From NCBI GenBank assembly GCA_950106755.1, contig OX467082.1:23436001-23500000 (forward strand): 64,000 bases of DNA, read 5' to 3'. Positions within the stretch are counted from its first letter, which is position 1. The number at the start of each line of letters is the position of its first letter. Made by a program: the position numbers and the translations under genes. The stretch comes from Climacium dendroides. Its lineage: Eukaryota; Streptophyta; Bryopsida; Hypnales; Climaciaceae. This document shows, piece by piece, positions 8,271 through 39,800 of this stretch. A model generated the notes under the pieces. The model did not search any database. It was not told the DNA's origin and saw only the letters and a list, made by a program, of their open reading frames with translations.

Positions 8271-8884
8271 GGTTGCAGAACTCTCCAAAACACTCAAACC
8301 TCCTATCCTTTTCTTGCCACAGCCCCCGGTCAATCCTCTTCCTCTCCCCGACAGGATCCAGAAAGTAAGATTACCCAATCCTCTCACACCTCTAAAGACA
8401 AACCTCGTTCTAAGAGTGCTCCAAACCATAAAGACACAATGAGGTTTGAGGAACCAAACCCCTACGTATCCTTTCCTCGCAGTCACAGCCATTGGGAAAG
8501 TAGCCGTTTCCGCAATCATTGCGGAGGAATCTAGCCGTTGAACGGTCCTCTGTGATGTATGGGATTACTGTTGGATCCGAGATTTCCTCTTCCCGTCCCG
8601 ATAATCTTCCGATAGCATGCGGATGCATTTGCTTCCGGCCCCGGTATATTTTTCCAATCCCTGTTTAGTTCCTTGAGTGCGGATCCGGTTCCGGATCTTT
8701 AGGAAAACAGGAAACTTACAATATCTTTCTTAACCAAATTATCTATCTACTACTAATCCAATAGTAAGGTAGAGTTAATATTGGTAATATGATTAGTTTA
8801 CCATTTTGTAAATCAAAATTTTTTACCAATGTCAACTCTTTACTTCTAAATTCTATATAACCAACTTCATCCTCTCATTTTGGT
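8271..8884. other. Non-coding spacer between genes A and B
   Basis: This is the probable 5' flank of gene A plus AT-rich DNA around 8700-8880. A weak imperfect inverted repeat (actaatc near 8753, gattagt about 35 bp on) is visible. Nothing else is supported. Confidence 0.4.
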
Positions 8885-11800
8885 CTACGACAGAGGCAAA
8901 CTAAATTTGGAAGTGAGTACCAAATGGCTATAAACCGTACTTGGTTCTCTGTCATTTCTTAGCAAATACGTTCGACTCCCTTCTTTGAGCCTCTCATACC
9001 ATATTCCATTGAAAACATCTCCAGCAAAATACTTGTTTTCATCTGGGTCAGTGAAGGCCTCCTCAACAGTGTACGTTGCCTTCACCACGATTATGAGCCA
9101 CCACGGCTCCTCTTCAAGTGGGGCTCGTACTGCAACATTATCCCCCAAGCACAAACCATCCGCAATCCACTCTCCACCAGTGCCAGCTTCCACCTCCTCA
9201 TTTGCATCATAAAGTCTTCGAGCCTGAAATGGAGCTTTGGATCTCAACCTGTACAAACTGAATTCTCGGACATGGTCTGATTGGTAGCAAGTATGCTGGG
9301 TCTCATACCCCAAACACACATAGCAAAAACAAGACAACTATCGATACTGCAGGAGTGTTGGGTCTCTTGCTGTCACCGAACAGCATTGATGGTTCGACAT
9401 GCTTCCCGGTACACATTCCACTTGCCTGCTGTCACTTCGGTCCACACTACCTAGGCCAGTTCTAGGAATTAGCCAGAAAAATTTTGATGTCTCACTCCGG
9501 GCACTTTGGGGTCCTGCGTGCACCTTCAGAGCTTGCTCGTTTAAGAACTGAACAATCTCAGCAGCACTCTGTAGCTTCCTTCCATTTGCTTTCAGCTACT
9601 CTTTACGGATCTCTCTCTTCAGCAAGGCACTTGCACCATCTACTTCTCCCTTCCCATGACCAGACCCAAAATAATTCCAAGACATTTGGCAACCATCTAC
9701 CAATGTGGCACTGCTAGTCAACTTAGGATATCTACTTATGAAATACCAAGCACGTGCACTCTTAAATTGCCTGCTACATCCATCTGACCAGACTATATGG
9801 TTATTGGGGGTGAAACCTTGGCCCTTCACATGTTCCCAATTCAGCATAAGACAATGTTGGACAAAAAGAGAGTCATGAGTTTTATCATCAGATACATAAT
9901 AATGAATTTCTTTCAACAAAAGAGCCTCATTGCTATCTCTGTCCCAATCAGGGTTTAACTTGTAAGTGATATGAACCAAGATTGTGACCTGATCATTGTG
10001 CCAATGCATACTTTGTATCTCATTTTGAACCTTTAAAGTATAATTTTCTAAAAAATCAATGCAAGAGATTAAAGTTCCAGGAGGAACAGAGGTAAACAAC
10101 TCTTTAAATTGATAATCCTGCCAAGATGCTACATAATTATGCAACACAAACGCTTGCAACTTGGGTTTCAGGTAATTGATCAACTCACGGGGAGTTGTTT
10201 CTTTATATTCCAAGGTTGAGGCTTTCCTTGGGATTCCTTCCTCCGTTGTTTCCACCACCTTGTATCCGATGCTCTTCCACTTGACGATCTACTCAGATGT
10301 CATTTCCTGCGAACAAATCCGAAGCATCTGGATTCCACAATCCACACATTCACCCATTAAACAGTCTCGCTTGTGCCACATTGACAATTCGTCTTTCTTG
10401 CACAAAATGGATGTCCACAGGTTAGTCAGCCTCTCATACACTTGAAGATGAGCTGCACACATACTACCCGCACCTTCACCACACCCTAAGCCACCACAGA
10501 TCATCGCACAATCACAAGAACAATCTAAATGAATTCCCTGTCTATCAGTCCTCATAATGTCGAGAGCAATCATCAGCTCTGTCAACTCCTGGTGGTATCG
10601 GCAACAACAGGTATTCCACATTCGCAACCGCTTGACCCACCACGGCTTCAGGTTCTCAAAAGAAGTCAAGCTACAAACAAGGTCAAGGTTCTTGGCCTTG
10701 AAAGCCGTATAAAATTCAAGCTGCATACCAGTTAACACAAATCAAAGAAATCAGAACCTGTGCTTAGGGGTCCACAAGCTGACATTCGCTGCAAGCAAAA
10801 GGATCACATGGTTCAAAGTACCCTAAGTATACCACCTTCAGATACAAGTCCGACAAAGTGAAAGCACATTAGGCACCTTAAAACTTGCACCAAAAGCAAC
10901 CCAAGATCCTAAGCAACCCAAGATCCTAAGCAATCCAACACTCTCAACAACCAACACCCTAAGCAACCAGCACCCTAAGCATTTTCAATACCAAAGTAGG
11001 AGTCCAAAAAAGTACTTGAACCATAAGGCCACAAGCAATCTAGCACCCTAAGCAATCCAGCACCCTAAGCACCTTCAATACCAAAGTAGGAGTCCAATAA
11101 AAGTACTTGAACTATAAGGCCACAAGCAATCCAGCACCCTAAGCAACCAGCACCCTAAACATTTTCAATACCAAAGTAGGAGTCCAAAAAAGTACTTGAA
11201 CCATAAGGCCACAAGCAATCCAGCACCCTAAGCACCTTCAATACCAAAGTAGGAGTCCAAAAAAGTACTTGAACCATAAGGCCACAAGCAATCCAGCACC
11301 CTAAGCACCTTCAATACCAAAGTAGGAGTCCAGTAAAAGTACTTGAACCATAAGGCCACAAGCAATCCAACACCCTAAGCAATCTAGCACCCTAAGCACC
11401 TTCAATACCAAAGTAGGAGTCTAGTAAAAGTACTTGAACCATAAGGCCACAAGCCACCAATACCCTAAGCAATCCAGCACCCTAAGCACCTTCAATACCA
11501 AAGTAGGAGTCCAGTAAAGTACTTGAACCATAAGGCCACAAGCAATCCAGCACCCTAAGCACACCACTCAGCGCAGCAAAACTAACAAATGATTTTAAGT
11601 ATTTCAAGTACACCCATTTTAGCACAAAAGCAAGGCAAAAGAAAGGGATATAGCTGAAGCACCCTAAGCACAGGCTATAGTACACTTTTAGCACAGCGAG
11701 TGACATTCACTGTGAGCACAAGCAACAAATGGATCTAAGTATCTCAAGCATGCAACCTTCAACACGTAAGCAAGATAAAGGCAATGAACTTTCTAATCGC

Positions 11801-20245: not shown

Positions 20246-20269
20246 GTCGTCGCAACGAAGCTAGTATAC

Positions 20270-20304
20270 GAGCGCAGAGCGTGAGCGTGGAGCGTGGAGC
20301 GTAG
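20270..20304 (+). repeat. Left terminal inverted repeat of MULE copy 1
   Basis: Starts gagcgcagagcgtgagcgtg and continues as gagcgtg and gagcgta heptamers, followed by gaaactt. It matches the reverse complement of the right end imperfectly, mainly in the heptamer array. Confidence 0.7.
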
Positions 20305-20921
20305 AAACTTGAGCTTGAATGAAATTTTCAGCTGAATATTACTTTCAGTGATAGAAATTGATAGATTCATGAAGAGCATTTCTAGTTTTTTTTTTTAAAA
20401 ATTTGAACTTGAATACCTATGACCGTGGAATTTAGGATTTTCTAAGACCGTGCAGAAAAATGGTTGGCACAAATATTTAATGGTTTAAGGTCTGAATCAA
20501 AGGCTAAACCCTCCAAGTAGCATAATTCATATTTTTTATTCACATTCTTGTGAAAGAACTGTCAGAGAATTTCCCATATTTGTCTAAAAATTTACAATTT
20601 CAAATATGCAAATGTTCAAGATGTAATGCATTTGTACAAATTCAGATAGGGTATTTCAATAAACTACTTCTTCTTATATCTATAACATGTCTTTCTTCAT
20701 AGCACAAACGCTTTTAGAGATATTAAAATACATTTCGACAAAGAAAAAAAAGTAGAAAACAGTTGAATTCATCATGCACAAAAACAAGGGTGTAAAAATC
20801 AAGCAGTGGCCCTTTTGTCTCACTGTATATATAAGAAAAATTAGAATGTAATACAGTATTTGTGGTCTATGACTTCACCAATCACAACCACGATATTACT
20901 ATCACTAATTTCCAGAACTTA

Positions 20922-23900
20922 TCACTTGTTCTTGCACTTCAAAATGCCGCTCTCAAGAACATGTTTCACTTCATTAAAGCTGAAGCTTGGAGCATGAATA
21001 AAGACATCTACTTCTGTATCAAGCTGGCATATGACAACAAATATGAAATACAAATGCTTGCAATTAGCCCACTGTCTTCTTTTTCCAAGTGCCTTTGTTG
21101 ACATTTCCTTGAAATTAGGGCAAGTGCATTTAGGAAATGAACCTATAGTAAGTATGTATTCTTCACTATTAGGCGGTACACCTGAGTTGAGCATTATAAT
21201 GCAACCAAAACCAGGATGTGGTATCATAGTTACCTATCGAACAAATGCCTTCAGACTAAGGGCGGATGCACAATTGTTTCCTTGTTTTGTCGTAGGAGCA
21301 TTTGGATTCCGCCGAATTTTCTTCCCAGACCTTGTACTTGAGTGCTCTGTAGGAAATGTTGGAATCTCAAAGCCGGACACATCATTCGGTAGTTTGTTGT
21401 CTCCGAATAATCTCTTTGGAGAGATTGCAACACGTTGAGGAAGACAAAACCCTGCGTTTTGAAGCTCGCGCATTTCCTTTTGCGTAAGATTGGTTCCAAA
21501 CTTCACTGGCCAAATCTCCAGTATCTCTGGTTTAGAAAGGACCCATTTTCGTTTTGAACCCTTCACACACCGTGCAATGTCGTCATTGTAGAAGAAAAAT
21601 TGCATCTTCTCAATCTTGTTCTTCTTGTAATTCTCCATGCTACCAGTATAGGTTGGTGTTGGAGTTCCTTTATTGCCTTGAACAATTTTGGCAATGCATT
21701 TCTTTCTTGTCAATGCTTGCAAGGCAAAACATGCCTTTGCAGAGTTCTTCGGTAATCGGGCTATATGCCACTGTAACTCATCACAAGCTGATTCTTGAAT
21801 ACTTGTAACATGAAATGCCTTCTCAGAGGTTGATAGTTTGATTGGACCATCAGACATTTCTATTTCTGTGTCTCCTTCATCAACATCAAATACATGTTCC
21901 TCACATACAGCATCCAAAGGAGATTTTGAAGAACTTGTCTGGATGGACCTTTTCCTCAGACGAGGTCTGGAGAAATTGACTGTGTCAGGTTGGTGCAAAT
22001 TGTGCTCAGAACCTGGAGGCAAGTTACTGTCTCTCTTTTGAGACCCAAAAATCTCCTCACCTTCAAAATGTGGGTCCCTTGTGCAATATTCCCCTACCCC
22101 TGGGACTTTGGCCATGGCATCATTAAGACTTTTTGGATTTCCAGTGCGTTGGGCATACCTTTGAGCAACTCGAAGTAGTAGTTCCTCTTTACCGGGCCCA
22201 GTCCCTGGGTTGGATCCTTTCAGAAATTGATAGTATCGAACCATTTGCATAAATGCCCTAACATAGTCATCAACTGTAGCAACGTACAAGTCATTCCCTC
22301 GATTCCCTGACTGTTGCTTCCATTTGTTGTGGATTGTCTCGGCAAGGTTGCAAGATGGCATCTCAGCAAGCTGTTCAGGTGGAAGATCCTATATCAAACA
22401 GCATTGGACATTAAAATAGTAATAAAAAAAAACTAAATACATTCTAAACAAGCCCTACAGATCAGAATAAAATATATTGAGAAAGAACAAATATTTCACA
22501 TGTGATCCGTTCAGTAAAATGGCCTACATGGAAATATGAAGGACATATGAGCTCACCAGAAATCCTCCCCATTGTCGAAACCGGAAATGCCAAAATGCTA
22601 ACCACAATTCGAGCCGGCGGAGCGCTTCCCCAGTTGCTGCTCCAGAAGAGTACCACCATGAACGAATGGCATGAAAACGAATGTCGGACTCAAATGATGA
22701 CTCCGCATTCTTATACTACTTGCACAATTTGCGATGTTGATCTTGAAGGTCAACTCGAATGTCTGCCTTCGTGTGCTTTTCCATAGACTGAGTTCAGTGG
22801 AAGAGGCAAGTACGTTCACGATTGAACATAGGAATTGATGCATCTCCACCACCATAGACAATTCGTACCGCATTCCAGTTTGCCATAGCAGAGTCCGCCA
22901 TGAAGCCTTTAAAATATGGCAAGGCAATATCATGCCTTGACATTACAGCATTCAAATTCTTCCAGAATGTGCATTGGGCAATAACATCTTCAGATTGCAT
23001 GTCACAAACCGCAATAGTCAACACACGACAGAAATGTGGGTCATAAACATAACAAGCCATTGTTGTCCAATTCTTCACTCGTTTGACATGATCAAACATT
23101 ATCCAAGCATCTTGAAGGTCACCACCAGGTTGCATGCGAGTAACCAAATCAACACCACTACCTGGACCCAACTCTGACATTTTGAAGATGAAAACCTTAT
23201 CAGAGTCCGATCCTTGACCCGGGAACTTGTTCTCTTGGACAAAAGCCCAATTACTGCATCCTCTCAGTTTAGTAATGCTATCCATAATTCCAAACCTTCG
23301 GAAATACTTGAATGTAGTAACCTCATTTCTGATGCTAGGTGAACTCATATACTTGCACTTCTCAAGCACAGGAAGAAGGTCAGTAATTCCAAACTGTTCG
23401 GAGGCAGCTCCCTCAGGTCGAAGAAGTAATCCTCCTAATAATTCTTTGCTTGCCTCGAGCACGATTGAAGAGTTTGTTGCAGATGGGTTTCGCTCCACTT
23501 GATCACAAATCAAAGACCGAATTTTCTCCCTGGAATCGCGACAATCTCCATCTTTTACAGGATGTTCATGGACACCAAAGTGAGCACAAGCTCGTCTCAT
23601 ATCCTTGCTGCCAATCACATAATATATTTTGGCAGGGCAAGTTGCAACACAAGATGGTATAGTGCTACAGACCTTGCATACAATTGTTGAACCAGACGGA
23701 GGGTTAATTCCAATTTGGAATGGCAGAGGAGAACATCCATTCCATTTAGATTCGTTAACTGATGTAGTTCGGTGAACTCGTGTAAGGTAGTTGCAATTGA
23801 TATTCTCACAACGAAGATGACCCACACATGAAGCTAAACGGAATGTCAACCCATCAACGTTTTTGATGTTTGTGGTATGTGTGTTTGTCCACACATGCCC

Positions 23901-24651
23901 GTCATAGCGCTTCTCCATTCCACTCATAAGCTTTGCTTGTGAGTGCATAGTGGAATCTTGAAGGGCCGGTAACTCGAAAATGACGTCTCCATTGAAAACG
24001 GAGGGAACAAAATCAACAGTGTGTACATCAATTACATCATAATTAACCTTTTTAAAAGGATTCCGTGATCCCTTGGTGAAGCAAAGCTTTCGAAGACAAG
24101 GTATAATAGACTGACCTTTGGCAGACATCAGTCTATTATCAACTACTATAGAAGGCGCAGATGGCATAGTATTGACATGTAGCAAAGGATCTGAAGTATT
24201 TTTCATGGCCACAGGTGGTGGTAATGAAGTATCTAAATCATTGCTGTCCAATGTAATGACATCTATTCCGGGCTCTATTTTGATCCTCGTTGACAAAGGT
24301 GTCAGCTGAATGGATGTGCTAGAGATTTTCGTTGCACCATGTGTCGAAAATGCTCCTAGAAGTGTATTTACGTAATCCATACGCTAAAAACTTCCCTGGA
24401 TGCAAATGCCATTGCTTGCAAGGGCTGTCAAGTGAAGGTTCTTGACCCACCGTATGAATCAAATCACCACTCGCACTATCGAAGACCTCTTCATCAATAT
24501 GTATAGACTCCTCAGACAACGAAAACCGGATACCCAAACGAAAAGCAGTGACTACAGCATAGCCTGATGCACCAACTGGAAATGTCATGGGGATTGACTC
24601 TCCTGGAGCCCTTACAAACGCAACAGAATCAGAAGACATGTTGACGCTCAT
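20922..24651 (-). pseudogene. MULE transposase copy 1, SWIM zinc finger, broken
   Basis: Minus-strand counterpart of the copy at 32516-36245, with the same structure: an N-terminal open segment 24651-24319, the catalytic segment from 24380, an intron at 22556-22389 and a final exon from 22388 to 20922. It shares with copy 2 the apparent frame change near 24380-24319, the TGA at 22796-22794 and the TAG at 22718-22716. It has one extra defect: TAG at 21236-21234 where copy 2 has CAG (Gln), just before the SWIM finger. A few substitutions separate the copies (for example Lys versus Glu, Ser versus Tyr), and no coding indel was seen. This copy therefore cannot make a full transposase without read-through. 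Confidence 0.8.
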
Positions 24652-24697
24652 GGAAACCTACTTTTGATTACATGAAAACCATCTACACTTCACTCCA

Positions 24698-26544
24698 TTG
24701 CAAGAAAGCATGTATTGCAAGCCCGTAACAGGATTTCAGATATATCATGTTGGATGGGGGCATTTCAGATATATCATGTTTGAATTGTTGCCAAAAGGAG
24801 CTGTGCAACAATCAGAGCTTCCAGGGTTCCTCACACTATGGGTTGACAAGGCATCGGTGGACCATTGCATGTATTCCACTGGTTTGATTCGTTCATGGGG
24901 AGTCTTGCATTTGAACTCCGGCTGTTGGTATTTAGATTGTGGAGGTGGTTTCTGTCCTTCTGAGGAAGAAACAAAGTTGCAAAGTATTCTCCAAGCAGAG
25001 AAGGTGTTGGGTGGCAGTGATCACCCTATTACAGTTGATGATGAAGATGCTACTTATCATGACGTTGCTTTGGATCTTTCTCGTATGAATGAGAAAGAGA
25101 AAGCAAAAGCCGTTAAACAAATGCAAAGAGCTGCTGAGAAGGCTGAAGCTCGAAAGGCAAGAGAGAAACAGAAGAAGGCTGAGAAAGTCTCCAGAGCATC
25201 ATTGCTTGCTGATGTAAAAGCAATGGCAGCTGAGGCTGTAGCTTCTATTAAAGCTACAGGCAAAGCCCCGACAAATCTTCATGGCATTGGTACTTCTGGA
25301 GGGGAAGGCACTCAGACATCCTCTGCTTTTTTGGGTAGAGGTACTCGCAAGCGTGATTCTTCATCCATCGACCTTAGTATTTCCAAGCTTTCTCTTGGAA
25401 ATATGCCAACTTCAGCCGTGGCGGATGTGGATACTACAGGATTGGATGCATACATTTTCAATGGCTCCCTTCATTTACTTTTCACTCATCGAATCAATCA
25501 TGGTGTATTTCCTTCGGGCTGGACTGATCTTCTGGCTTTTCTTGACAAGGTAATTCTCTATACAATTCTTGTATATGAAGCTGTGACTCTAAGTCTTTAT
25601 TATGTTTTTTTGGATGTTTGAATTTCTTTCTAATTATATAATGTTGTATTGCAGCATAAAGGAGACAAGGATAGATTGTTTAAGGGTGTTGTTTCACAAT
25701 CTCGAGCTATAGATCTGATGATTTTAGACATTCCAGAGGGTTTGCCTGTACCTGGGGTGTCTAATCCTCCATCAGTTGTTCCACTGTGGAACAACCTTCA
25801 TTCACAGTGTTTGAAGGCATCTTTTGATTTTGCAAATAGTCATTTGCATGATGATGGAGCTTTTCTTATTTTTCATCCCGATTCAGCCCAAGTGAAACTG
25901 GAATTGAAAAGCTTCTGTCGGGCATTTCACTTTAAAGTGTATCGCAAATGGATTGGTATAAATCGTCTTCAACTGACAAATCCGAAAGACTCTTCAAAAA
26001 TGGTACTCTACGTTTTCTTTTTCTTTCATTGATTTAGTACATTGCTTTTATTGGTAGTGATTGATTTTTCATACGATATGTAAATTTCTTGGCCTTGTTC
26101 AATGCAGACACTTTTATTTGGCATTCAATTGCTGGTAAGGAGCTATCCAAACATATCACCTTCGCGCTTTACCCTTCAATCGGTGCCAAATCTGGATGCT
26201 CTGGGAATTCATGTTGACTCTGATGATGTACTTCACAATGTTGTGACTATGGAGTCACAACTGATGCATGATAATATTCCTTGGCGTGGACCACGGGAAA
26301 AAGACCTTGGGCTGATGCAAATTCTAATCGAATCTTGTTCTTTACCTGGCGATGTGGTGTTCGATTGTATTGCAGCTACAGGTTTGTCTATGACATTCTT
26401 TAAGTAGCTATGTTAGATTCAAAATCCTAAAACTTCTGTAGTTTATATAGATATATATCATTTTTTGGCTTCCTATGTTTGATTCTGATTCCCTTAACTA
26501 TTGTAATTTTTATATAGATATCATTTGTTGAGTTTTTCTATTGA

Positions 26545-26595
<51 letters not shown>

Positions 26596-27253
26596 GATTA
26601 ATTTGATACAATATATTTTTGAGGATTTCTGAACTTCTTTTATTTCAGGTTCTACAATTCATGCCTGTCGTAGAACCGGTCGCCATGTAATAGCATTTGA
26701 GGAAGATGCATTGATTTTCAATGCTCTTTTGCAACCACTTATCATTGAAACAGAGAGCCCAATCGCCAAAAAGCCACGTTTGGAAGATGACACTAGTAGC
26801 TCTGATGATTCTGAAGATTCAGATTCTGAACTACCGGTAGTTGAAGCAACTAATTTATTCTGTAAGTAAGTTTTGTATTTATTTGTGCACAATCCTTACA
26901 TATCATTTGTACATTGTTTCTTCTTGTTCCCTTTACAACCTTGCTCTTATAATCTTTATTCTCTGGTTTTGTGCAGCTCAAGGATGACTAAATCTCCAAT
27001 AGAGAGCTCTATTCTCCAACCCTTGTGGAAGGAATTCATGAAGAGCCCTCTCAAGCCATTTGTATTGCCGGTCTATGCTGAAGAATTAGCAAATGAACTT
27101 GTGAGGGCACCTCATGTTGTTCCTAGGTCTTATGGTTTTCGTAGAGATCGAAGAGTTCTTCAGTTTATTGATGATGCAGCAGATTGTGATAATGATGCAG
27201 GAGATAGTGATACTGACAATAGTAGCTCTCACTCTTTTACAAGATATAAGTAG
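24698..27253 (+). CDS. MULE-borne permuted amino-DNA-methyltransferase-like protein
   Basis: Five exons joined by GT-AG introns: 24698-25549, 25655-26002, 26108-26381, 26649-26865 and 26977-27253, giving 655 residues without internal stop. Residues 1-284 hold a Lys/Glu/Ala-rich helical stretch (MNEKEKAKAVKQMQ) and no known domain. Exon 2 has DLMILDIPE (Asp about 309) where these enzymes have motif IV (DPPY), then DDGAFLIFHPDS. Exons 3-4 carry SLPGDVVFDCIAATGST and GRHVIAFEED (about 480-507), resembling the SAM-binding motif I. Motif IV before motif I is the permuted order of N6-adenine/N4-cytosine DNA methyltransferases. DIPE in place of DPPY questions catalysis. A basic patch (AKKPRLEDD) and an acidic tail follow. 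It runs divergently from the transposase inside the same terminal repeats. The ATG is the first in this frame, but a further 5' exon is possible. The fold is a fairly confident inference; DNA as the substrate is not shown. Confidence 0.7.
24733..24780. repeat. 19-bp direct repeat at the start of the methyltransferase-like gene
   Basis: atttcagatatatcatgtt occurs at 24733-24751 and 24762-24780, 29 bp apart. The inverted copy of the element loses homology at 24735, inside the first unit. Confidence 0.8.
26547..26592. repeat. (AT)23 microsatellite in an intron
   Basis: An uninterrupted AT dinucleotide run of 46 bp in the third intron of the methyltransferase-like gene, about 55 bp before the acceptor. 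Confidence 0.95.
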
Positions 27254-28183
27254 TATACAGACTGTGATTTTCATCACTGTCTTCACATGTGTATACATTT
27301 TCATACTTTACACCTATCGGTGAGACTAAAAGGGCCACGTATGTTATGTTTTTATCTGTCTTCTTGCCCTTTACATTTTGAATGTAGATTTGCTACTATA
27401 TTTCAAGTTGTAGATATATCTATATAAACAGATATAATAATTTTTTGATCTTTAAATCCTAACTTATTTTATATCTTAAAAATGCTTAAAATATTTTTTT
27501 CCTATTTGAATCCAATCGTGTTGTCTGTTTTTGGATTTTAAAGATGTTCATTGTTAGTTCTTTTGATTGCAAAAGTATCACCCTTATATAGTGTGGAGTA
27601 ATTACTTCAACTAGTAAGTTTTGGAATTATATGTACTTGAACTTGATGTTCATGGATTTTGAAAGTCTATTTTTCCCAATCTTTTTCGATTACATTGTGG
27701 ACAAATTGATATTTACTATCCAAAAATCAAATCTCCAAGTGAATATGATTATTACAAGATTGGTTCTACATTTGTGAATTCCAAATTGTTTTTTACACAA
27801 ACTGATTTTTAAATATAACCTTAAATTCTCTTTAAATAGCATACATTTCTTTATAAATGTGCCTTTCAACAATTTGATGATTGATTTTCTTTCGTTTTTC
27901 TGAATGAGAGAATATTTGATAGAGCAATTATAGAAAATATTTTAATACATTTTAATAGAAATATACATATGTAGATTACTTTCATTATGTCTATTAAAAT
28001 TTACAAAGAATTCTTAAATGAAAACACTATGCTTACAGTTTGTACTCTTTTAATTTGTTTACTTCACTTTAACTTCATACCTAGAATCTTTACATTCTAC
28101 ACGGTTTTAGGTCTTCACATGTACACGGCAATAGGTTTCCTAAATTTTTCAACTTTTTTTCACCAAAAAAATTAGTGTAAATT
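27254..28183. other. AT-rich 3' part of MULE copy 1
   Basis: Non-coding tail of the element between the methyltransferase-like gene and the right terminal repeat. No exon or repeat is supported. Confidence 0.6.
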
Positions 28184-28219
28184 CCACGCTCTACGCTCTA
28201 CGCTCTATGCTCCACGCTC
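28184..28219 (-). repeat. Right terminal inverted repeat of MULE copy 1
   Basis: ccacgctctacgctctacgc continues to tccacgctc, the reverse complement of the heptamer array at the left end. Confidence 0.7.
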
Positions 28220-28581
28220 ATGTGACAGCATTCCCCCACAATAGATTGCACCATTTCAGAAGCCATTAAATAAATTGAGACTAAAATGGAAGTCAATTAC
28301 TTTTATATCAGTCAAGTCTGATGTGAAAAAGAAGAATTTGGTCAAAGATGTTTGTTGTTGTCAATCAATGGGTTACAAATTTATGGAATTGAATTCCAAG
28401 ACACGATCATGTACCTCATATTATTGAGTAAATCATCCCTAAGATCGAGTAGAAAAATCACAATTAAGATCAGACCTTGCAATTGTTGAAGAAGGATTAT
28501 ACAAGAAAAACAAAATTTCTAAATAACTTCAATCTTGATCCAAGTATGCAGTCAGCTGGATTTGGGGCCCTGGGCTACGTC

Positions 28582-28722
28582 CGTCGGTGCCGACAGGCCT
28601 AGTTGACCGATGATTGGCAACTGTGGCAATCACAAAACAATGACAAGCATGAGAACTCTCCACCCATACCACACAATTTTCAGCTGCCATGTCCGTGGTC
28701 ACCAAGGCCCGTCGGTGCCGAC
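28582..28722. repeat. Paired GTCGGTGCCGAC motifs, left side
   Basis: cgtcggtgccgacaggc at 28582-28598 and gtcggtgccgac at 28711-28722. They are inverted relative to the pair at 30317-30414. Confidence 0.7.
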
Positions 28723-29766
28723 AACCAATGGCTTTTGATCCGCTGCAGCTGAAATTCAATCAAACGTTTCCATATTTTTACAAACGATGTTAATTTCCGC
28801 TACATTGATAAGTGACAGCTCAACACTTGACCTATTCTAGATTGAAATCAACAATGACAATGAACGTGGCCAATAGTTCCTTAACAATACCAAATTGTTA
28901 GCCAATTTTCTGCAGGATGTATTTGAGAGCTCTTCTTGGTTGCTGGATCACTAGAGGCCCACTTACAGCTCACTTGGGCTGATTGTTCTAGAATTATTGC
29001 ATGTATTGTCAAGGAATGGAGACTTGAAGAGCCAATTCTACCTGCTCTTTTTAATACACAGATGAAGTACAATACTTACATACTCTCTACATACATTTCA
29101 TACTAATCTGATTGATCTCCAGAACGAACACACACTAGCAACTGGTTGGTTTAATTATTTGTTTGTCAGCACTTGGGAAACACATACTTAATTGAAAGGG
29201 GTATAGAGTTGAGGCTTATCCAAAACCCTTGGAGAAAATCCCTTTACATAAGCTTACATCATTAAGTAATTTGAATCACTGCAGCAATGCAATTGGTTTT
29301 GGTCATCTGCCTTGAAACTCATCAAAGCCAATGCATTTTCCAAAGATGGATCTACCAATAAATCCGAGAGAGATCACACACATTCACAGAGAATACAAGA
29401 ATGAAGACACATACTGCTTTTGATGTCTTCCCTAAAAACTGAACCTAGCCTCAATGACTTTGATCTAAGCAGCCAAGGATCTAATCTGATGTGGTCTAAC
29501 TACTCTACACTTGTCGCCAGGAGAACTGTCAATTCGGGAGAACGGAGCTGAAGACTACAGCCGAGGGATAGTGTCGCCCCAACTTTGAGAGTGACGAAAT
29601 TATACAATCGCACAACCACAAGTCTGAAGCACAAATCACACAATCATTCAACTCGATCAGAAAACACGCACCTGCGAATCTGGACGAAGCTGCTGAATGT
29701 GAAGAACTCGTGAAGGCTTCCAAACTTCCTGTCATATCAAACCAAAATTCAATCAGCTAGTATGAG

Positions 29767-29833
29767 GGCAGCTGCGCGTGAACTTGATGATCACAACCTG
29801 AAAGGCAGTTGCGCGTTAACTTGATGATCACAA
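29767..29833. repeat. 30-bp direct repeat
   Basis: Two units (29767-29796 and 29804-29833) start ggcag and share tgcgcgt, then aacttgatgatcacaa, with two mismatches. They lie about 100-165 bp upstream of the TATA-like tataaat at 29932. Confidence 0.7.
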
Positions 29834-30316
29834 GGTATCCTTGGACCCTATTCCTCGACTGAATTATACCTCGACCAGTCAAACGGTTTAGGGTGTACAG
29901 TTGTGATTCCACAGCTTCTCATATAAATGCACACGAACCCTGATCATCTACAATCACCATCTCAGTTCATGCCTTCCGCACTAATTGTCTGGATGGACTA
30001 GAATTCCGAGGACTATATTTGGAACTTGAACTTTCTCATCCTCGTCAATTTCAGCTCCTTCAAGTTCACGTGCTGATTCAACCAGTCTTAGCTCATGACA
30101 GTTCTGGCTCCCTCCACACCGCAAATTTGATCATCACCGACGTACCCACGGCTGCTTCGCAGATATGCAAGGAGTTCAGCTCACAGGCACGTTTAGGTCT
30201 GTATCGTTCCACGTAGATTCATTGATCTCGGGACGTCATTCAATCAAGAGCCTTTTGAAGAAATGTACGTTGTGACAATGCATCAAGTACTGACCTGCCT
30301 TGGTGAGTAGCGAGAA

Positions 30317-30414
30317 GCCTGTCGGCACCGACGACTAACTCGAAGTTCACCGAGACTGTCGTCGGCGTAACTGCAGCTGCGCCGCAACGAAATCTTCCCG
30401 CTGTCGGCACCGAC
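30317..30414. repeat. Paired GTCGGCACCGAC motifs, right side
   Basis: gcctgtcggcaccgacg at 30317-30333 is the perfect 17-bp reverse complement of 28582-28598. A second gtcggcaccgac lies at 30403-30414. Both right-hand copies are followed by gactaactc. Confidence 0.7.
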
Positions 30415-31426
30415 GACTAACTCAAAGCGCACCCACAGCAGCTGCAACTGAACGTGTCGAATACCTAATCGATCAAGTAACCCTAAAATTTGCGTAGCAG
30501 GCAGCAGATGGACTCTCCAAGCAAAAACATACGTGCTTAGCGCATGCACAAAGCTGGACCAGGAGGCCGCATGCACAAAGCGGGACCAGGAGGCGTAGGT
30601 AGTTAACCTAAGAAAATGGCAACGATGGCTGGCCAAGAGCGCAAACTGGAAGGAGAAGTTGCACATGTGATAATCGTGACGGAGCGAAAATTGGAAGGAG
30701 AAGTTGCGGTGGGTCCGAACAGGAGCACAGAAGGAGCGGTGGGTCCGAATTAGGTATCACCAATAGGCAGTAGCCAGAAGCTTTTGGGCATGTGGAAAAA
30801 AATTATAATGATGAATTTAAAAGCCACCTGAAGTTTACCTTACGAAAAAAATCTTTAGTTCCTCTTCAATGAGGGATTAGGAAAATATTTAAGAGGAGGT
30901 ATAAACTTAAATTAGGTCACCCAATTACACTAACTTCTCAAGTCGTGAAAGTAAAAATATCCATTTGATGAAACTTCTAATTCCGTGGTCATGAGTGCCA
31001 AATGATAATTACTGTAGATTAATGTAGATTACAAGCAATGGCCAAACAACCACAAACAATGAGTGAGTCAAATGGTTAAGTTAAGCAAGACGAAGTTCAA
31101 AATTATGTTAAATGCATGCACTCATGGTTTTAATCCACTGACGTTTTAAACAACTTGACTGGGTTTCAATGTGTATATCCTAATAAATTGGCAGTTTCAC
31201 GAAGATGAATATTAAACTGTGACAAAGAAGAAAATTTTGAAATTACTGAATGAGTTTTATAATTGCATTATGAATGTTACACTCTATATTCTAAGTTAGC
31301 TTTTAAAAACTCACACCAATCAAATATGTTGAGGAAACCATCTACTCTATAATAATCTTGATCTGAGCCTCATCATTGATATACGAAAACAGAATGCATG
31401 CAACTATGACTATAAGCTTTTCATAC

Positions 31427-31726
31427 CTCTTCCCGCTGATAGTACGAATCGGTGACGCCGTGATCCTCTGGAACTTCCACCACTGTTTCTAATGACAACT
31501 TTGTTTGTGACAACGACTTGGATGGCGACTTCCCTGCTTCTGTGATATCTACTTCTGTAAATACGAGCTCCTTTGAAAGACTAGAAAGGACACTTGAACT
31601 AATAGCTTTGCGCAGCCTGTGCTCTCTGGATCAATGAAGAGCTTTCCTTGTGGAGAAACGAGAGATGGATCTTCTCTTCCTCTTCAGTCTCTCAGATGAA
31701 GGAGAAAAAGGATTATCTCCATCCAT
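31427..31726 (-). pseudogene. Candidate first exon of an unrecognised gene, one TGA
   Basis: From ATG at 31726 a frame of exactly 100 codons (start MDGDNPFSPSSERLKRKRR) ends with GREE-like residues (YYQREE) at a consensus donor, gaggag/gtatga, in phase 0. One TGA (31633-31631) interrupts it after TRKALH. The N-terminus is basic and nuclear-localisation-like. A TATA-like sequence lies about 58 bp upstream. No downstream exon was identified; the gene would run toward lower coordinates into the spacer. It may be a host gene truncated by the MULE or a captured fragment. Confidence 0.35.
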
Positions 31727-31783
31727 TTGTGTAAAACTAAGTCCGACTTCCCTCAAAATGCAAGATTGGAATGGTGGTTAGGC

Positions 31784-31792
31784 ATATATATA
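31784..31792 (-). promoter_or_regulatory. TATA-like box upstream of the 31726 start
   Basis: An alternating AT run reads tatatatat on the minus strand, 58 bp before the ATG at 31726. This is reasonable core-promoter geometry with a short leader. In AT-rich DNA it could be chance. Confidence 0.3.
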
Positions 31793-32515
31793 CAATTGTA
31801 ATTGTTTGTATTTATTATTTCCGGCCTAAGAATTCTTTGCCAAGGTACTTGAAACGTACACTTCAAAATCTTAATTTGAATAGTTTCATCATTAATTTCC
31901 CTTAGCAGTTCTATACAGCTCATAATTTATGTAATTTAAGTTGGTTGTCAGAACTTGCATTGTTTAGGTAATGCTTACATAGTCCTTGATTTTGAACTCC
32001 TGACATGAAGTTGGAATTGATTTCAAATATATACTATGATACTCCGTTTTCAAATTGTGTACAATTTTCATTAAATAAAGCGCCATACTATGATTCTTTA
32101 TTGCCCGTCACATGACTGGGTAGTGAATTTCTGTGGATGCTTCAGACCACTTCCGTATTAGGTGGATTTTTAAAATGACATCTACAAATTATCCTCATTT
32201 ACACTGACTGCCATTTTACCCCTCCATTTAACTATTTGTAAAGACAATTAGCATTTCCCTCATAATGAATTGTTCAGGTACTTTTGGCGGACCTGCACAT
32301 GATAACTTTTTACCATTACATTTATGACTTTCATAACTCTTATCGGTGCAATGGCATCTCATTCTATTTTGGCCATGCTTAGCTGTAAAGCTATGATGTT
32401 TTCATCATCTTAGATATCTTTTGTTTGCTACAATCCTGTTACGGGCTTGCAATACATGCTTTCTTGCAATGGAGTGAAGTGTAGATGGTTTTCATGTAAT
32501 CAAAAGTAGGTTTCC

Positions 32516-35500
32516 ATGAGCGTCAACATGTCTTCTGATTCTGTTGCGTTTGTAAGGGCTCCAGGAGAGTCAATCCCCATGACATTTCCAGTTGGTGCAT
32601 CAGGCTATGCTGTAGTCACTGCTTTTCGTTTGGGTATCCGGTTTTCGTTGTCTGAGGAGTCTATACATATTGATGAAGAGGTCTTCGATAGTGCGAGTGG
32701 TGATTTGATTCATACGGTGGGTCAAGAACCTTCACTTGACAGCCCTTGCAAGCAATGGCATTTGCATCCAGGGAAGTTTTTAGCGTATGGATTACGTAAA
32801 TACACTTCTAGGAGCATTTTCGACACATGGTGCAACGAAAATCTCTAGCACATCCATTCAGCTGACACCTTTGTCAACGAGGATCAAAATAGAGCCCGGA
32901 ATAGATGTCATTACATTGGACAGCAATGATTTAGATACTTCATTACCACCACCTGTAGCCATGAAAAATACTTCAGATCCTTTGCTACATGTCAATACTA
33001 TGCCATCTGCGCCTTCTATAGTAGTTGATAATAGACTGATGTCTGCCAAAGGTCAGTCTATTATACCTTGTCTTCGAAAGCTTTGCTTCACCAAGGGATC
33101 ACGGAATCCTTTTAAAAAGGTTAATTATGATGTAATTGATGTACACACTGTTGATTTTGTTCCCTCCGTTTTCAATGGAGACGTCATTTTCGAGTTACCG
33201 GCCCTTCAAGATTCCACTATGCACTCACAAGCAAAGCTTATGAGTGGAATGGAGAAGCGCTATGACGGGCATGTGTGGACAAACACACATACCACAAACA
33301 TCAAAAACGTTGATGGGTTGACATTCCGTTTAGCTTCATGTGTGGGTCATCTTCGTTGTGAGAATATCAATTGCAACTACCTTACACGAGTTCACCGAAC
33401 TACATCAGTTAACGAATCTGAATGGAATGGATGTTCTCCTCTGCCATTCCAAATTGGAATTAACCCTCCGTCTGGTTCAACAATTGTATGCAAGGTCTGT
33501 AGCACTATACCATCTTGTGTTGCAACTTGCCCTGCCAAAATATATTATGTGATTGGCAGCAAGGATATGAGACGAGCTTGTGCTCACTTTGGTGTCCATG
33601 AACATCCTGTAAAAGATGGAGATTGTCGCGATTCCAGGGAGAAAATTCGGTCTTTGATTTGTGATCAAGTGGAGCGAAACCCATATGCAACAAACTCTTC
33701 AATCGTGCTCGAGGCAAGCAAAGAATTATTAGGAGGATTACTTCTTCGACCTGAGGGAGCTGCCTCCGAACAGTTTGGAATTACTGACCTTCTTCCTGTG
33801 CTTGAGAAGTGCAAGTATATGAGTTCACCTAGCATCAGAAATGAGGTTACTACATTCAAGTATTTCCGAAGGTTTGGAATTATGGATAGCATTACTAAAC
33901 TGAGAGGATGCAGTAATTGGGCTTTTGTCCAAGAGAACAAGTTCCCGGGTCAAGGATCGGACTCTGATAAGGTTTTCATCTTCAAAATGTCAGAGTTGGG
34001 TCCAGGTAGTGGTGTTGATTTGGTTACTCGCATGCAACCTGGTGGTGACCTTCAAGATGCTTGGATAATGTTTGATCATGTCAAACGAGTGAAGAATTGG
34101 ACAACAATGGCTTGTTATGTTTATGACCCACATTTCTGTCGTGTGTTGACTATTGCGGTTTGTGACATGCAATCTGAAGATGTTATTGCCCAATGCACAT
34201 TCTGGAAGAATTTGAATGCTGTAATGTCAAGGCATGATATTGCCTTGCCATATTTTAAAGGCTTCATGGCGGACTCTGCTATGGCAAACTGGAATGCGGT
34301 ACGAATTGTCTATGGTGGTGGAGATGCATCAATTCCTATGTTCAATCGTGAACGTACTTGCCTCTTCCACTGAACTCAGTCTATGGAAAAGCACACGAAG
34401 GCAGACATTCGAGTTGACCTTCAAGATCAACATCGCAAATTGTGCAAGTAGTATAAGAATGCGGAGTCATCATTTGAGTCCGACATTCGTTTTCATGCCA
34501 TTCGTTCATGGTGGTACTCTTCTGGAGCAGCAACTGGGGAAGCGCTCCGCCGGCTCGAATTGTGGTTAGCATTTTGGCATTTCCGGTTTCGACAATGGGG
34601 AGGATTTCTGGTGAGCTCATATGTCCTTCATATTTCCATGTAGGCCATTTTACTGAACGGATCACATGTGAAATATTTGTTCTTTCTCAATATATTTTAT
34701 TCTGATCTGTAGGGCTTGTTTAGAATGTATTTAGTTTTTTTTTATTACTATTTTAATGTCCAATGCTATTTGATATAGGATCTTCCACCTGAACAGCTTG
34801 CTGAGATGCCATCTTGCAACCTTGCCGAGACAATCCACAACAAATGGAAGCAACAGTCAGGGAATCGAGGGAATGACTTGTACGTTGCTACAGTTGATGA
34901 CTATGTTAGGGCATTTATGCAAATGGTTCGATACTATCAATTTCTGAAAGGATCCAACCCAGGGACTGGGCCCGGTAAAGAGGAACTACTACTTCGAGTT
35001 GCTCAAAGGTATGCCCAACGCACTGGAAATCCAAAAAGTCTTAATGATGCCATGGCCAAAGTCCCAGGGGTAGGGGAATATTGCACAAGGGACCCACATT
35101 TTGAAGGTGAGGAGATTTTTGGGTCTCAAAAGAGAGACAGTAACTTGCCTCCAGGTTCTGAGCACAATTTGCACCAACCTGACACAGTCAATTTCTCCAG
35201 ACCTCGTCTGAGGAAAAGGTCCATCCAGACAAGTTCTTCAAAATCTCCTTTGGATGCTGTATGTGAGGAACATGTATTTGATGTTGATGAAGGAGACACA
35301 GAAATAGAAATGTTTGATGGTCCAATCAAACTATCAACCTCTGAGAAGGCATTTCATGTTACAAGTATTCAAGAATCAGCTTGTGATGAGTTACAGTGGC
35401 ATATAGCCCGATTACCGAAGAACTCTGCAAAGGCATGTTTTGCCTTGCAAGCATTGACAAGAAAGAAATGCATTGCCAAAATTGTTCAAGGCAATAAAGG

Positions 35501-36245
35501 AACTCCAACACCAACCTATACTGGTAGCATGGAGAATTACAAGAAGAACAAGATTGAGAAGATGCAATTTTTCTTCTACAATGACGACATTGCACGGTGT
35601 GTGAAGGGTTCAAAACGAAAATGGGTCCTTTCTAAACCAGAGATACTGGAGATTTGGCCAGTGAAGTTTGGAACCAATCTTACGCAAAAGGAAATGCGCG
35701 AGCTTCAAAACGCAGGGTTTTGTCTTCCTCAACGTGTTGCAATCTCTCCAAAGAGATTATTCGGAGACAACAAACTACCGAATGATGTGTCCGGCTTTGA
35801 GATTCCAGCATTTCCTACAGAGCACTCAAGTACAAGGTCTGGGAAGAAAATTCGGCGGAATCCAAATGCTCCTACGACAAAACAAGGAAACAATTGTGCG
35901 TCCGCCCTTAGTCTGAAGGCATTTGTTCGACAGGTAACTATGATACCACATCCTGGTTTTGATTGCATTATAATGCTCAACTCAGGTGTACCGCCTAATA
36001 GTGAAGAATACATACTTACTATAGGTTCATTTCCTAAATGCACTTGCCCTAATTTCAAGGAAATGTCAACAAAGGCACTTGGAAAAAGAAGACAGTGGGC
36101 TAATTGCAAGCATTTGTATTTCATATTTGTTGTCATATGCCAGCTTGATACAGAAGTAGATGTCTTTATTCATGCTCCTAGCTTCAGCTTTAATGAAGTG
36201 AAACATGTTCTTGAGAGCGGCATTTTGAAGTGCAAGAACAAGTGA
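32516..36245 (+). pseudogene. MULE transposase copy 2, SWIM zinc finger, less damaged
   Basis: An N-terminal open segment at 32516-32848 (start MSVNMSSDS) overlaps, in another frame, the catalytic segment from 32787. This is a shared frame change or an unrecognised splice. The catalytic segment has Asp in WIMFDHVKRV (residue 430 from 32787), Asp in GFMADSAMANWNAV (496) and TCLFH (Cys 525, His 528), the D-D-CxxH pattern of Mutator transposases. TGA at 34371-34373 and TAG at 34449-34451 break the frame, which then continues to 34610. A 168-bp GT-AG intron (34611-34778) joins in phase 0 to the last exon (DLPPEQLAEMPSCNLAE). That exon ends with a SWIM finger, CTCPNF then NCKHLYF (CxC, 19 residues, CxH), a DNA- or protein-binding finger typical of MURA/FAR1-type proteins. 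Copy 2 keeps Gln (CAG, 35931) where copy 1 has a stop. Confidence 0.8.
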
Positions 36246-36862
36246 TAAGTTCTGGAAATTAGTGATAGTAATATCGTGGTTGTGATTGGTGAAGTCATAG
36301 ACCACAAATACTGTATTACATTCTAATTTTTCTTATATATACAGTGAGACAAAAGGGCCACTGCTTGATTTTTACACCCTTGTTTTTGTGCATGATGAAT
36401 TCAACTGTTTTCTACTTTTTTTTCTTTGTCGAAATGTATTTTAATATCTCTAAAAGCGTTTGTGCTATGAAGAAAGACGTGTTATAGATATAAGAAGAAG
36501 TAGTTTATTGAAATACCCTATCTGAATTTGTACAAATGCATTACATCTTGAACATTTGCATATTTGAAATTGTAAATTTTTAGACAAATATGGGAAATTC
36601 TCTGACAGTTCTTTCACAAGAATGTGAATATAAAATATGAATTATGCTACTTGGAGGGATTAGCCTTTGATTCAGACCTTAAACCATTAAATATTTGTGC
36701 CAACCATTTTTCTGCACGGTCTTAGAAAACCCTAAATTCCACGGTCATAGGTATTCAAGTACAAAATTTTTTTAAAAAAAACTAGAAATGCTCTTCATGA
36801 ATCTATCAATTTCTATCACTGAAAGTAATATTCAGCTGAAAATTTCATTCAAGCTAGAGTTT

Positions 36863-36884
36863 CTACGCTCCACGCTCTGCGCTC
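36863..36884 (-). repeat. Terminal inverted repeat of MULE copy 2, contracted
   Basis: ctacgctccacgctctgcgc then tc, the same terminus as copy 1 but 13 bp shorter through loss of about two heptamers. It is followed by gtatactagcttcgtt, which is also present outside the heptamers of copy 1. Confidence 0.75.
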
Positions 36885-39800
36885 GTATACTAGCTTCGTT
36901 GGCCATTTGTGCATGAACATGGGGCCACATGGAACATTTCAATTACATTTTTTTTTGGTAAGTTTCTTATGGAGTACCATTGAAGACCTTGCATTCGACT
37001 TGTGCCAATCTTTTGGTTCCCCATTAGAGCTTTCGATCCATATTTTTTTGGACCATTACCAAATAAATCCGTAATTGGCCATTTGTGCATGAACATGTGG
37101 CCACATGAAACATTTCAATTACATTTCTTTCTGGTGAGTTTCTCATGGAGTACCATTGAAGACCTTGCATTCAACTTGTGCCAATCTTTTGGTTCCCCAT
37201 TAGAGCTTTCGATCCATATTTTTGTGGACCATTACCAAATAAATCCATAAAAGGCCATTTGTGCATGAACATGGGGCCACATGAAACATTTCAATTACAT
37301 TTCTTTCTGGTGAGTTTCTCATGGAGTACCATTGAAGACCTTGCATTCAACTTGTGCCAATTTCTTGGTTCCCCATTAGAGCTTTCGATGCATATTTTTT
37401 TGGACCTTTGCCAAATAAATCCATAACAGGCCATTTGTACATGAACATGGGGCCACCTGAAACATTTCAATTACATTTCTTTTTGGTGAGTTTCTCATAG
37501 AGTACCATTCAAGACCTTGCATTCGACTCGTGCCAATCTTTTGGTTACCCATTAGAGCTTTCGATCCACATTATCTTGAACCTTTGCCAAATAAATCCAT
37601 AACAGGCCATTTGTGCATGAACATGGGGCCACATGAAACATTTCAATTACATATTTTTTGCTCAGTCTCTCTTGGAGTACCTTTGAAGACCTTGCATTCA
37701 ATTTGTGCTTATTTTTTGGTTCCCCATTAGAGCTTTCGATCCATATTTTTCTACACCTTTGCCAAATAAATCCATAACAGGCCATTTGTGCATGAACTTG
37801 GGGCCACATGAAACATTTCAATTACATTTCTTTTTGGTGAGTTTGTCATAGAGTACCATTGAAGACCTTACATTCAACTTGTGCCTATTTTTTGGTTCCC
37901 CATTAGAGCTTTCGATGCATATTTTTTTGGACCTTTGCCACATAAATCCATAACTGGCCATTTGTGCATGCACATGGGGCCACATGAAACATTTCAATTA
38001 CATAATATTTTGCTGAGTTTCTCATGGAGTACCATTGAAGTCCTTGTATTCAACTTCTGCCTATTTTTTGGTTCCCAATTAGAGCTTTCGATGCATATTT
38101 TTTTGGACCTTTGCCACATAAATCCATAACTGGCCATTTGTGCATGAAGTTAGGGCCACATGAAACATTTCAATTACATTTCTTTTTGGTGAGTGTCTCA
38201 TGGAGTACCATTGAAGACCTTGCATTCAACTTGTGCCAATTTTTTGGTTCCCCATTAGAGCTTTCGATCCATATTTTTTTGAACCTTTGCCAAATAAATC
38301 CATAACAGGCCATTTTGATGCATGAACCTGGGGCCACATGAAACATTTCAATTACATTTCTTTTTGGTGAGTTTCTCATGGAGTACCATTGAAGGCCTTG
38401 CATTCAACTTGTGCCTATTTTTTGGTTCCCCATTAGGGCTTTCAATGCATATTTTTCTACACCTTTCCCAAATAAATCCATAACAGGCCATTTGTGCATG
38501 AACATGGGCCACATGTAACAATTCAATTACATTTCTTATAGGTGAGTTTCTCATGGAGTACCATTGAAGGCCTTGCATTCAACTTGTGCCAATTTTATGG
38601 TTCCCCATTAGAGCTTTCGATGCATATTTTCTTGAACCTTTGCCGCATCAATCCATAACAGGCCATTTCTACATGAACATGGGGCCACATAAAACATTTC
38701 AATTACATTTCTTTTTGCTGAGTTTGTCATGGAGTACCATTGAAGACCTTGCATTCAATTTGTGCCAAATTTTTGGTTCCCCATTAGAGCTTTCGATGCA
38801 TATTTTTTTGGACCTTTGCCAGATAAATCCATAACAGGCCATTTCTACATGAACATGGGGCCACATGAAACATTTCAATTACATTTCTTTTTGCTGAGTT
38901 TCTCATAAAGTACCGTTCAAGACCTTGCATTCGACCCGTGCCAATCTTTTGGTTACCCATTAGAGCTTTCGATCCACATTTTCTTGAACCATTGCCAAAT
39001 AAATCCATAACAGGCCATTTGTGCATGAACATGCGGCCACATGAAACATTTCAATTACATTTCTTTTTGGTGAGTTTCTCATGGAGTACCATTGAAGACC
39101 TTGCATTCAACTTGTGCCAATTTCTTGGTTCCCCATTAGAGCTTTCGATGCATATTTTCTTGGACCTTTGCCAAATAAATCCATAACAGGCCATTTGTAC
39201 ATGAACATGGGGCCACCTGAAACATTTCAATTACATTTCTTTTTGGTGAGTTTCTCATAGAGAACCATTCAAGACCTTGCATTCGACTCGTGCCAATCTT
39301 TTGGTTACCCATTAGAGCTTTCGATGCATATTTTTTTGGACCTTTGCCAAATAAATCCATAACAGGCCATTTGTGCATGAACATGGGGCCACATGAAACA
39401 TTTCAATTACATATTTTTTGCTGAGTCTCTCATGGAGTACCTTTGAAGACCTTGCATTCAATTTGTGCTTATTTTTTGGTTCCCCATTAGAGCTTTCGAT
39501 CCATATTTTTTTGAACCTTTCCCAAATAAATGCATAACAGGCCATTTGTGAATGAACATGCGGCCACATGAAACATTTCAATTACATTTCTTTTTGGTGA
39601 GTTTCTCATGGAGTACTATTGAAGGCCTTGCATTCAACTTGTGCCTATTTTTTGGTTCCCCATTAGGGCTTTCAATGCATATTTTTCTACACCTTTCCCA
39701 AATAAATCCATAACAGGGCATTTGTGCATGAACATGGGGCCACATGAAACATTTCAATTACATAATTTCTTGCTGAGTTTCTCATGGATTACCATTGAAA

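Follow-up and report, generated by a model that had tools for sequence, protein, structure and literature searches.

Probable Mutator-like elements of Climacium dendroides pair their transposase with a methyltransferase-like gene

The stretch of Climacium dendroides DNA analysed here (64,000 nucleotides of contig OX467082.1, hereafter the window) contains at 20253..28236 a rearranged mobile element, in which a transposase gene adjoins a second gene with a methyltransferase-like product. In the host assembly (412.6 Mb searched) the transposase and the second gene move as one unit, and the pair co-occurs in three subfamilies of elements through deep divergence. The assembly has 26 matches to the NAM domain, of which many are single exon pieces; we read them as some 13-14 NAC genes, a number that suits a bryophyte-like land plant. 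With moderate confidence, which applies to the statement as a whole, we take the window element for a Mutator-like element (MULE) of autonomous type from a land plant, rearranged in this copy and with two genes, the second of which would supply a protein with methyltransferase fold as a factor of the element itself.

Two genes within one mobile unit

Beside the window, second-gene loci comprise two close copies, A and B (L009/L010 and L011/L012; 97% identity), and 13 more distant ones, mostly of 67-70% DNA identity; a few matches shorter than 170 bases were left out of this count. Ten of the 15 loci outside the window were read, and copies are denoted below by single letters. Complete copies measure about 14 kb and hold, besides the transposase gene, a second one with about 12 exons; in A and B some 6.4 kb of sequence follow the transposase before the second gene begins. 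In all five copies of which both ends were read, target-site duplications of 9-10 bp enclose both genes (ACCTGCCTC in A, GGCGAGTAGT in B, GCACACAAGC in c, GCTCTAGGGT in d and CGACGAACTT in h). These lengths fall within the 8-11 bp by which MULEs are recognised; the window copy has no such duplication. Because the duplications surround both genes, and because the second gene has a ratio of nonsynonymous to synonymous substitution rates (dN/dS) of 0.15 between subfamilies, the case that it belongs to the element is strong.

The ends agree only in part with the initial annotation, which had placed both genes inside one pair of heptamer-rich inverted repeats. Such inverted ends are present in the window, as a left array of GAGCGTG/GAGCGTA (20277..20303, plus strand) and an inverted right array (28186..28219, minus strand), but these arrays are subterminal and the tips themselves are unlike each other. 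One subfamily-3 copy and copies A, B, c, d and h have their left array at the same place as the window copy and share with it a 5´ tip CAACGAAGCTAGTAT[AG]CGAGCG; the arrays vary in number from copy to copy. MULEs without terminal inverted repeats (TIRs) exist, according to the available part of a survey (PMC6446971). In a subfamily-3 copy (L034, L035, L036) the 5´ tip is clear, but 19 kb of sequence yielded no matching 3´ tip.

It is very improbable that the two genes belong to separate transposons, nested or adjacent. Such an arrangement would account for the sharp junction of halves in the window, where a second, partial copy diverges from the first, and for the inversion of the gene in subfamily 3, but a single target-site duplication around both genes in each of the five copies and a transposase-gene spacing that is steady inside each subfamily argue against it.

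Linkage holds well beyond the copies with known ends. A search with transposase exon 1 gave 550 candidates, of which 40 were scored: 4 of subfamily 1, 9 of subfamily 2 and 27 others, mostly of a third subfamily. A listed second gene lies at most 15 kb from 37 of these 40 loci. In 36, the second window copy excluded, it stands on the same side and in consistent relative orientation (A and B, the window, 8 loci of subfamily 2 and 25 of subfamily 3), so the gene pair noticed in the window is indeed carried by other MULE copies. Counted in reverse, at least 11 of 16 gene loci of subfamilies 1 and 2 and at least 25 of 40 of subfamily 3 have a listed transposase; since this count rests on 40 of 550 transposase candidates, the shortfall is not readable as absence. 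The subfamily-3 second gene is inverted, and its exon blocks share about 26-41% of amino acids with those of copy A. Its gene region found 164 candidates, of which 40 were scored, query included, and each of the 40 aligns over 2,639 or more of the 2,641 bases, with 95-100% identity. These matches, at least 39 besides the query, near-full-length and at 95-98%, suggest a recent burst.

Selection on the second gene was estimated by the method of Nei and Gojobori (NG86). Between copies A and d, dN/dS is 0.149 over 1,145 codons (dS 1.6, near saturation), with 0.104 in exon E8 and 0.057 in E5; the transposase, judged from its exon 2 only, gives 0.131. Within the subfamily, the A-B comparison gives 0.477. 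Copy f was omitted from the gene alignment because of an insertion, g entered it without E1-E3, g, h, i and j do not contribute to the gene dN/dS, and dS of E1-E3 is saturated in A-d, B-c and A-e. The low ratios between subfamilies and the higher one of A-B indicate that the protein was constrained during subfamily divergence and that constraint weakened once copies had inserted.

These ratios bear on the idea of a passenger, a host gene captured in the manner of Pack-MULEs and drifting since. Host gene capture is frequent in MULEs, as far as the portions of two sources at hand describe it (PMC6446971, PMC13317346), and stops or frame breaks occur in nine of nine genome copies read. Drift is nevertheless opposed by the between-subfamily dN/dS of 0.15 over 1,145 codons, by the presence of the gene in three subfamilies (exon blocks of subfamilies 3 and 1 share about 26-41% of amino acids), and by the 39 near-full-length subfamily-3 gene matches besides the query, together with several similar relatives that a protein search placed on different large contigs. 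We judge the passenger explanation improbable.

Between 43 and 91% of copy-specific changes, polarised in three-way comparisons of the window copy or its neighbour with A and B, are C>T or G>A, and they occur in CG, CHG and CHH contexts (H, any base other than G). All five transposase stops of the window copy and B relative to A are of this type as well. This fits, as indirect evidence, deamination of methylated copies.

A methyltransferase-like domain with an altered motif IV

Between subfamilies 1 and 2, exons E1-E11 of the second gene are conserved (about 1,149 codons); a basic exon E0 is probably attached to them, as phase and conservation suggest. The complete protein would have about 1,250 residues. 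It would start with the basic part encoded by E0, continue with a conserved domain that contains DGNHR and a middle that is likewise conserved, and end in a part with putative permuted amino-methyltransferase fold. The window gene had been described as having five exons and 655 residues. Splicing and the plus-strand position (24710/24776-27254) are confirmed, with GT-AG introns and an open frame, but its model gives 651 residues, and the five exons are only the last ones of about 12. E7 occupies 24710..25549 (E7 proper begins at about 24769, the earlier part being chimeric and derived from the transposase leader). E8 (25655..26002) encodes the motif IV-like DLMILDIPEGLPVPG, E9 (26108..26381) the motif X-like PWRGPREK and the start of the motif I-like VVFDCIAATG, and E10 (26649..26865) the remainder of motif I and the motif II-like HVIAFEED; E11 (26977..27254) adds an acidic C-terminus and the stop. 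The E9-E10 intron interrupts the sequence that encodes motif I and contains a long AT microsatellite (26547-26592).

A motif IV-like segment thus precedes a motif I-like one, the permuted order that had been read from the sequence. The profile search proposed at that stage places residues 458-508 of the window product, its motif X-I-II part, above the cut-off of Pfam family PF01555 (N6_N4_Mtase; 32.4 bits against 26.7). An initial protein search had returned a single match (P0001), and profile searches extended the set to 9 relatives of the N-terminal part and 61 of the methyltransferase part. For one relative, P0015, PF01555 is a precomputed assignment; of the 52 proteins in alignment A7, many of which do not include that part, 9 match the family at E<=1. 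The predicted fold of another relative, P0016, is that of a permuted amino-methyltransferase, a Rossmann fold with the order IV, X, I (up to motif I), and its model matches CcrM, M1.HpyAVI and M.BceJIV, bacterial beta-class N6-adenine methyltransferases. The Rossmann methyltransferase fold suspected for the second protein is therefore borne out in this relative, as a prediction. Against PDB sequences, the window protein alone gave weak matches to DpnA (E 0.023) and CcrM (E 0.11); the A7 profile found no methyltransferase and two unrelated matches, and A2 a methylase at E 2.2 only.

Motif IV itself is altered. A scan of 71 proteins with a pattern anchored on the following LPVP-like stretch gave 52 matches, from which one N-terminal artefact was dropped; many of the remaining 51 segments come from repeated or fragmentary members of one family or another and are not independent. 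DIPE occurs in 18 of them, DVPE in 16, DLPE and DMPE in one each and other forms in 15, and the catalytic [DNS]PP[YFW] in none of the 51. D-[IV]-P-E is also found in A, B, c, d, e, j and the window copy, and DVPE in two subfamily-3 loci. The motif X-like stretch reads PWRGPREK in five of seven segments listed and PWRGAREK in two; motif I is exemplified by DCTAATG and DLTAGTG.

With no canonical motif IV among the 51 segments, the evidence does not support an active DNA methyltransferase. It would be an enzyme that writes N6-methyladenine or N4-methylcytosine (6mA/4mC) on element DNA and in which D-[IV]-P-E functions as a form of motif IV. For it speak the permuted order IV-X-I, the resemblance of the modelled fold to CcrM and further DNA amino-methyltransferases, the GxG retained in some relatives (AGTG in P0011 and P0016), the retained acidic residue of motif II and the strongly constrained exon that encodes motif IV. 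The aromatic residue of motif IV has, however, become acidic in most segments, and the phenylalanine of motif I, often also its first glycine, is changed. We regard an active 6mA/4mC writer as unlikely. The altered motif IV rather suggests a module that may bind S-adenosylmethionine (SAM) or DNA, or one with an unusual substrate.

The core of the N-terminal domain reads DGNHR in six of nine relatives and DGNHK, DGNHC and DRNHR in one each. This core would resemble that of ParB/Srx; identity with ParB was not confirmed by Pfam, NCBIfam, the PDB sequence search or the model. Nor was any prokaryotic or viral relative of this domain confirmed among 176 genome-contig and 204 viral-contig short-pattern matches; for the methyltransferase part one viral-contig match (L032) was obtained. 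Pfam scans of the second-gene product contain no chromodomain. Two of the methyltransferase-part relatives are annotated proteins of Ceratodon purpureus, as would be expected if the protein were mainly a regulator or a domesticated host protein in some plants. The gene is nevertheless found here at 36 of 40 scored transposase loci, no search for host copies outside elements having been made, and we give this explanation a small probability.

The rearranged copy in the window

Copy 1 (20253..28236; 5´ tip CAACGAAGC..., 3´ tip ...GACAGCATTCCCC) is internally deleted. At the junction (24736..24747), where position 24735 is fused to 24748, the complete element has lost about 6.4 kb, namely the leader and exons E0-E6 of the second gene with their introns. 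What had been annotated as one element shows no target-site duplication at its ends, where one was looked for, and is followed by an inverted second partial copy (28238-36901). The latter consists of an inverted middle region (28238..32431, minus strand), which spans the place of E0 and breaks off about 14 bp before E1, and an inverted transposase half (32432..36901, plus strand). BLAST within the window matches 36901-32432 to 20253-24735 at 99.2% identity, the match ending where the second gene begins.

The start codons of the two genes, reported as divergent and 46 bp apart, lie at 24651 and 24710 with 58 bp between them. They are so close because of the deletion, and their arrangement is an artefact of this copy instead of a native one. 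A shared promoter was considered and ruled out, since the arrangement is a deletion product and the second gene is inverted in subfamily 3.

The transposase gene is on the minus strand, as described, and its SWIM-like CxC..CxH stretch can be recognised by eye, but the gene is dead here. Relative to copy A, whose 1,186-residue transposase is free of all these defects, three stops and an insertion of 1 bp disrupt it. Exon 1 (22557..24651) carries the insertion near 24380 and two stops that replace the W and Q of copy A codons 619 and 645, and exon 2 (20922..22388), which includes the SWIM-like stretch, a premature stop at 21234-21236. Two of the stops and the identical insertion recur in the second window copy. 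The whole D..D..CxxH..CxC..CxH pattern was recognised by eye only, and Pfam SWIM matches a piece of the window transposase below cut-off (E 0.45).

Directly after the second copy, from 36902 to about 62600, follow GGCCATTTGTGCATGAACATGGGGCCACATG-type repeats; one open frame recurs at 47043, 49859, 53172, 60953 and 62189, by appearance within a large tandem array. Upstream, on the minus strand, two adjoining open frames at 9599-10741 combine a GSGHGKGEVDGA stretch with a cysteine-rich part, have no Pfam match of note and look like the coding gene of another element. Two long adjoining minus-strand frames at 6375-8564 belong to no clear family and are possibly part of a retroelement.

Proposed role and relation to known systems

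Several observations weigh against a two-gene MULE whose second protein acts for the element. In each of the nine genome copies read the second gene is interrupted by stops or by frame breaks (by eye, one in-gene stop in A, two in B, one in d, five in c and eight in e, DVDCE* being the natural end in subfamily 2, and frame breaks in g, h, i and j), the window exons E7-E11 being free of any; in the subfamily-3 locus L034, stops in the aligned stretches sit in parts read by eye as introns. Splice sites of subfamily 2 are GT-AG at most places, and the E4 acceptor, mostly AG there, is AA in A and B, a shared change that may predate their insertion, unless another acceptor is used. Linkage was scored in 40 of 550 transposase candidates; for three of the 40 the nearest listed second gene is beyond 15 kb (one at 36 kb) or none is listed (two), and the second window copy has lost it. 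PF01555 scores of 23.4 in copy A and 18.2 in copy d stay below the cut-off of 26.7. The modelled fold belongs to a relative with 35% identity over 86% of the query and extends only into motif I, short of motifs II-III, and E9-E11, with motifs X, I and II, are less constrained (dN/dS 0.28) than E8. Pfam matches neither the transposase of copy A nor two pieces of that of copy d. The N-terminal domain has no match of note in Pfam, NCBIfam or PDB sequences, and its poor model (pLDDT, the predicted local distance difference test, 41.6) no meaningful structural match.

If the two-gene reading holds, the second protein would bind the element's own DNA, perhaps at the subterminal heptamer arrays; its methyltransferase fold may serve as a SAM- or DNA-binding module or act on an unusual substrate, and the protein could aid transposition or, like VANC, relieve silencing by methylation. 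It could then be an epigenetic or anti-silencing factor or a methyl-dependent cofactor, as the initial annotation proposed. More specifically, though with low probability, mobility or escape from silencing in a plant MULE of a kind not yet described would depend on an obligate partner with amino-methyltransferase fold and the new active-site signature D-x-P-E-[GN]-L-P-V-P-G, which N-methylates element DNA or, using SAM in a different reaction, marks or recognises its ends. The role of such an accessory gene becomes directly testable, as that of a methyltransferase-like protein marking, reading or undoing DNA methylation.

With CcrM, M1.HpyAVI and M.BceJIV the second protein has the permuted order and, by prediction, the fold in common. 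Bacterial beta-class enzymes and N4CMT have DPPY or SPPY, whereas the protein described here has D-[IV]-P-E and a large extra N-terminal part and is transposon-borne. METTL14/MTA9-type pseudo-methyltransferases combine an amino-methyltransferase fold with a non-canonical motif IV and serve as partners or nucleic-acid platforms; they are of a different family, and no partner methyltransferase was identified for the second-gene product. MuDR has inverted repeats at its tips, whereas the arrays are subterminal here, and its mudrB is not known to be methyltransferase-like. MuDR (mudrA/mudrB) likewise has two genes, the second of poorly known role, in the part of the survey available (PMC6446971).

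Bdelloid N4CMT is a eukaryotic PF01555 protein with SPPY and a chromodomain, neither of which the second-gene product has, and is stated, in the section of its description at hand, to have no eukaryotic homologues (PMC8885841); the gene described here would add a land-plant PF01555-type family. Other transposons likewise carry genes that modify DNA or chromatin: TET/JBP in DNA transposons of fungi (PMC12730594), DNMT in retrotransposons (PMC5890265) and SET in MuDR of oomycetes (PMC6446971). Their folds and transposons differ, and no amino-methyltransferase fold appears among them in the portions of these sources covered. A table of MULE groups includes SET, FAR1, PMD and others, with no DNA methyltransferase in the portion covered (PMC6446971). 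Our literature search, of titles and abstracts with partial coverage, found no methyltransferase-like gene described in a MULE. MULEs with second genes are known; the literature searched yielded none whose second gene encodes an amino-methyltransferase fold. Second genes of MULEs are common, yet little is understood of them. The one described here can be connected with a recognisable fold, with selection and with transposase linkage in three subfamilies, inversion included.

The Arabidopsis MULEs VANDAL/Hiun with VANC likewise combine a transposase with accessory genes (PMC10398659). The available part of that source does not mention a methyltransferase fold for VANC, such as is predicted here, and the two are likened by description, not by sequence. 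VANC removes silencing and binds tandem short noncoding motifs whose repeats contract and expand (PMC10398659), much as the heptamer arrays described here vary in number between copies. VANC is the nearest functional precedent for the role proposed for the second protein.

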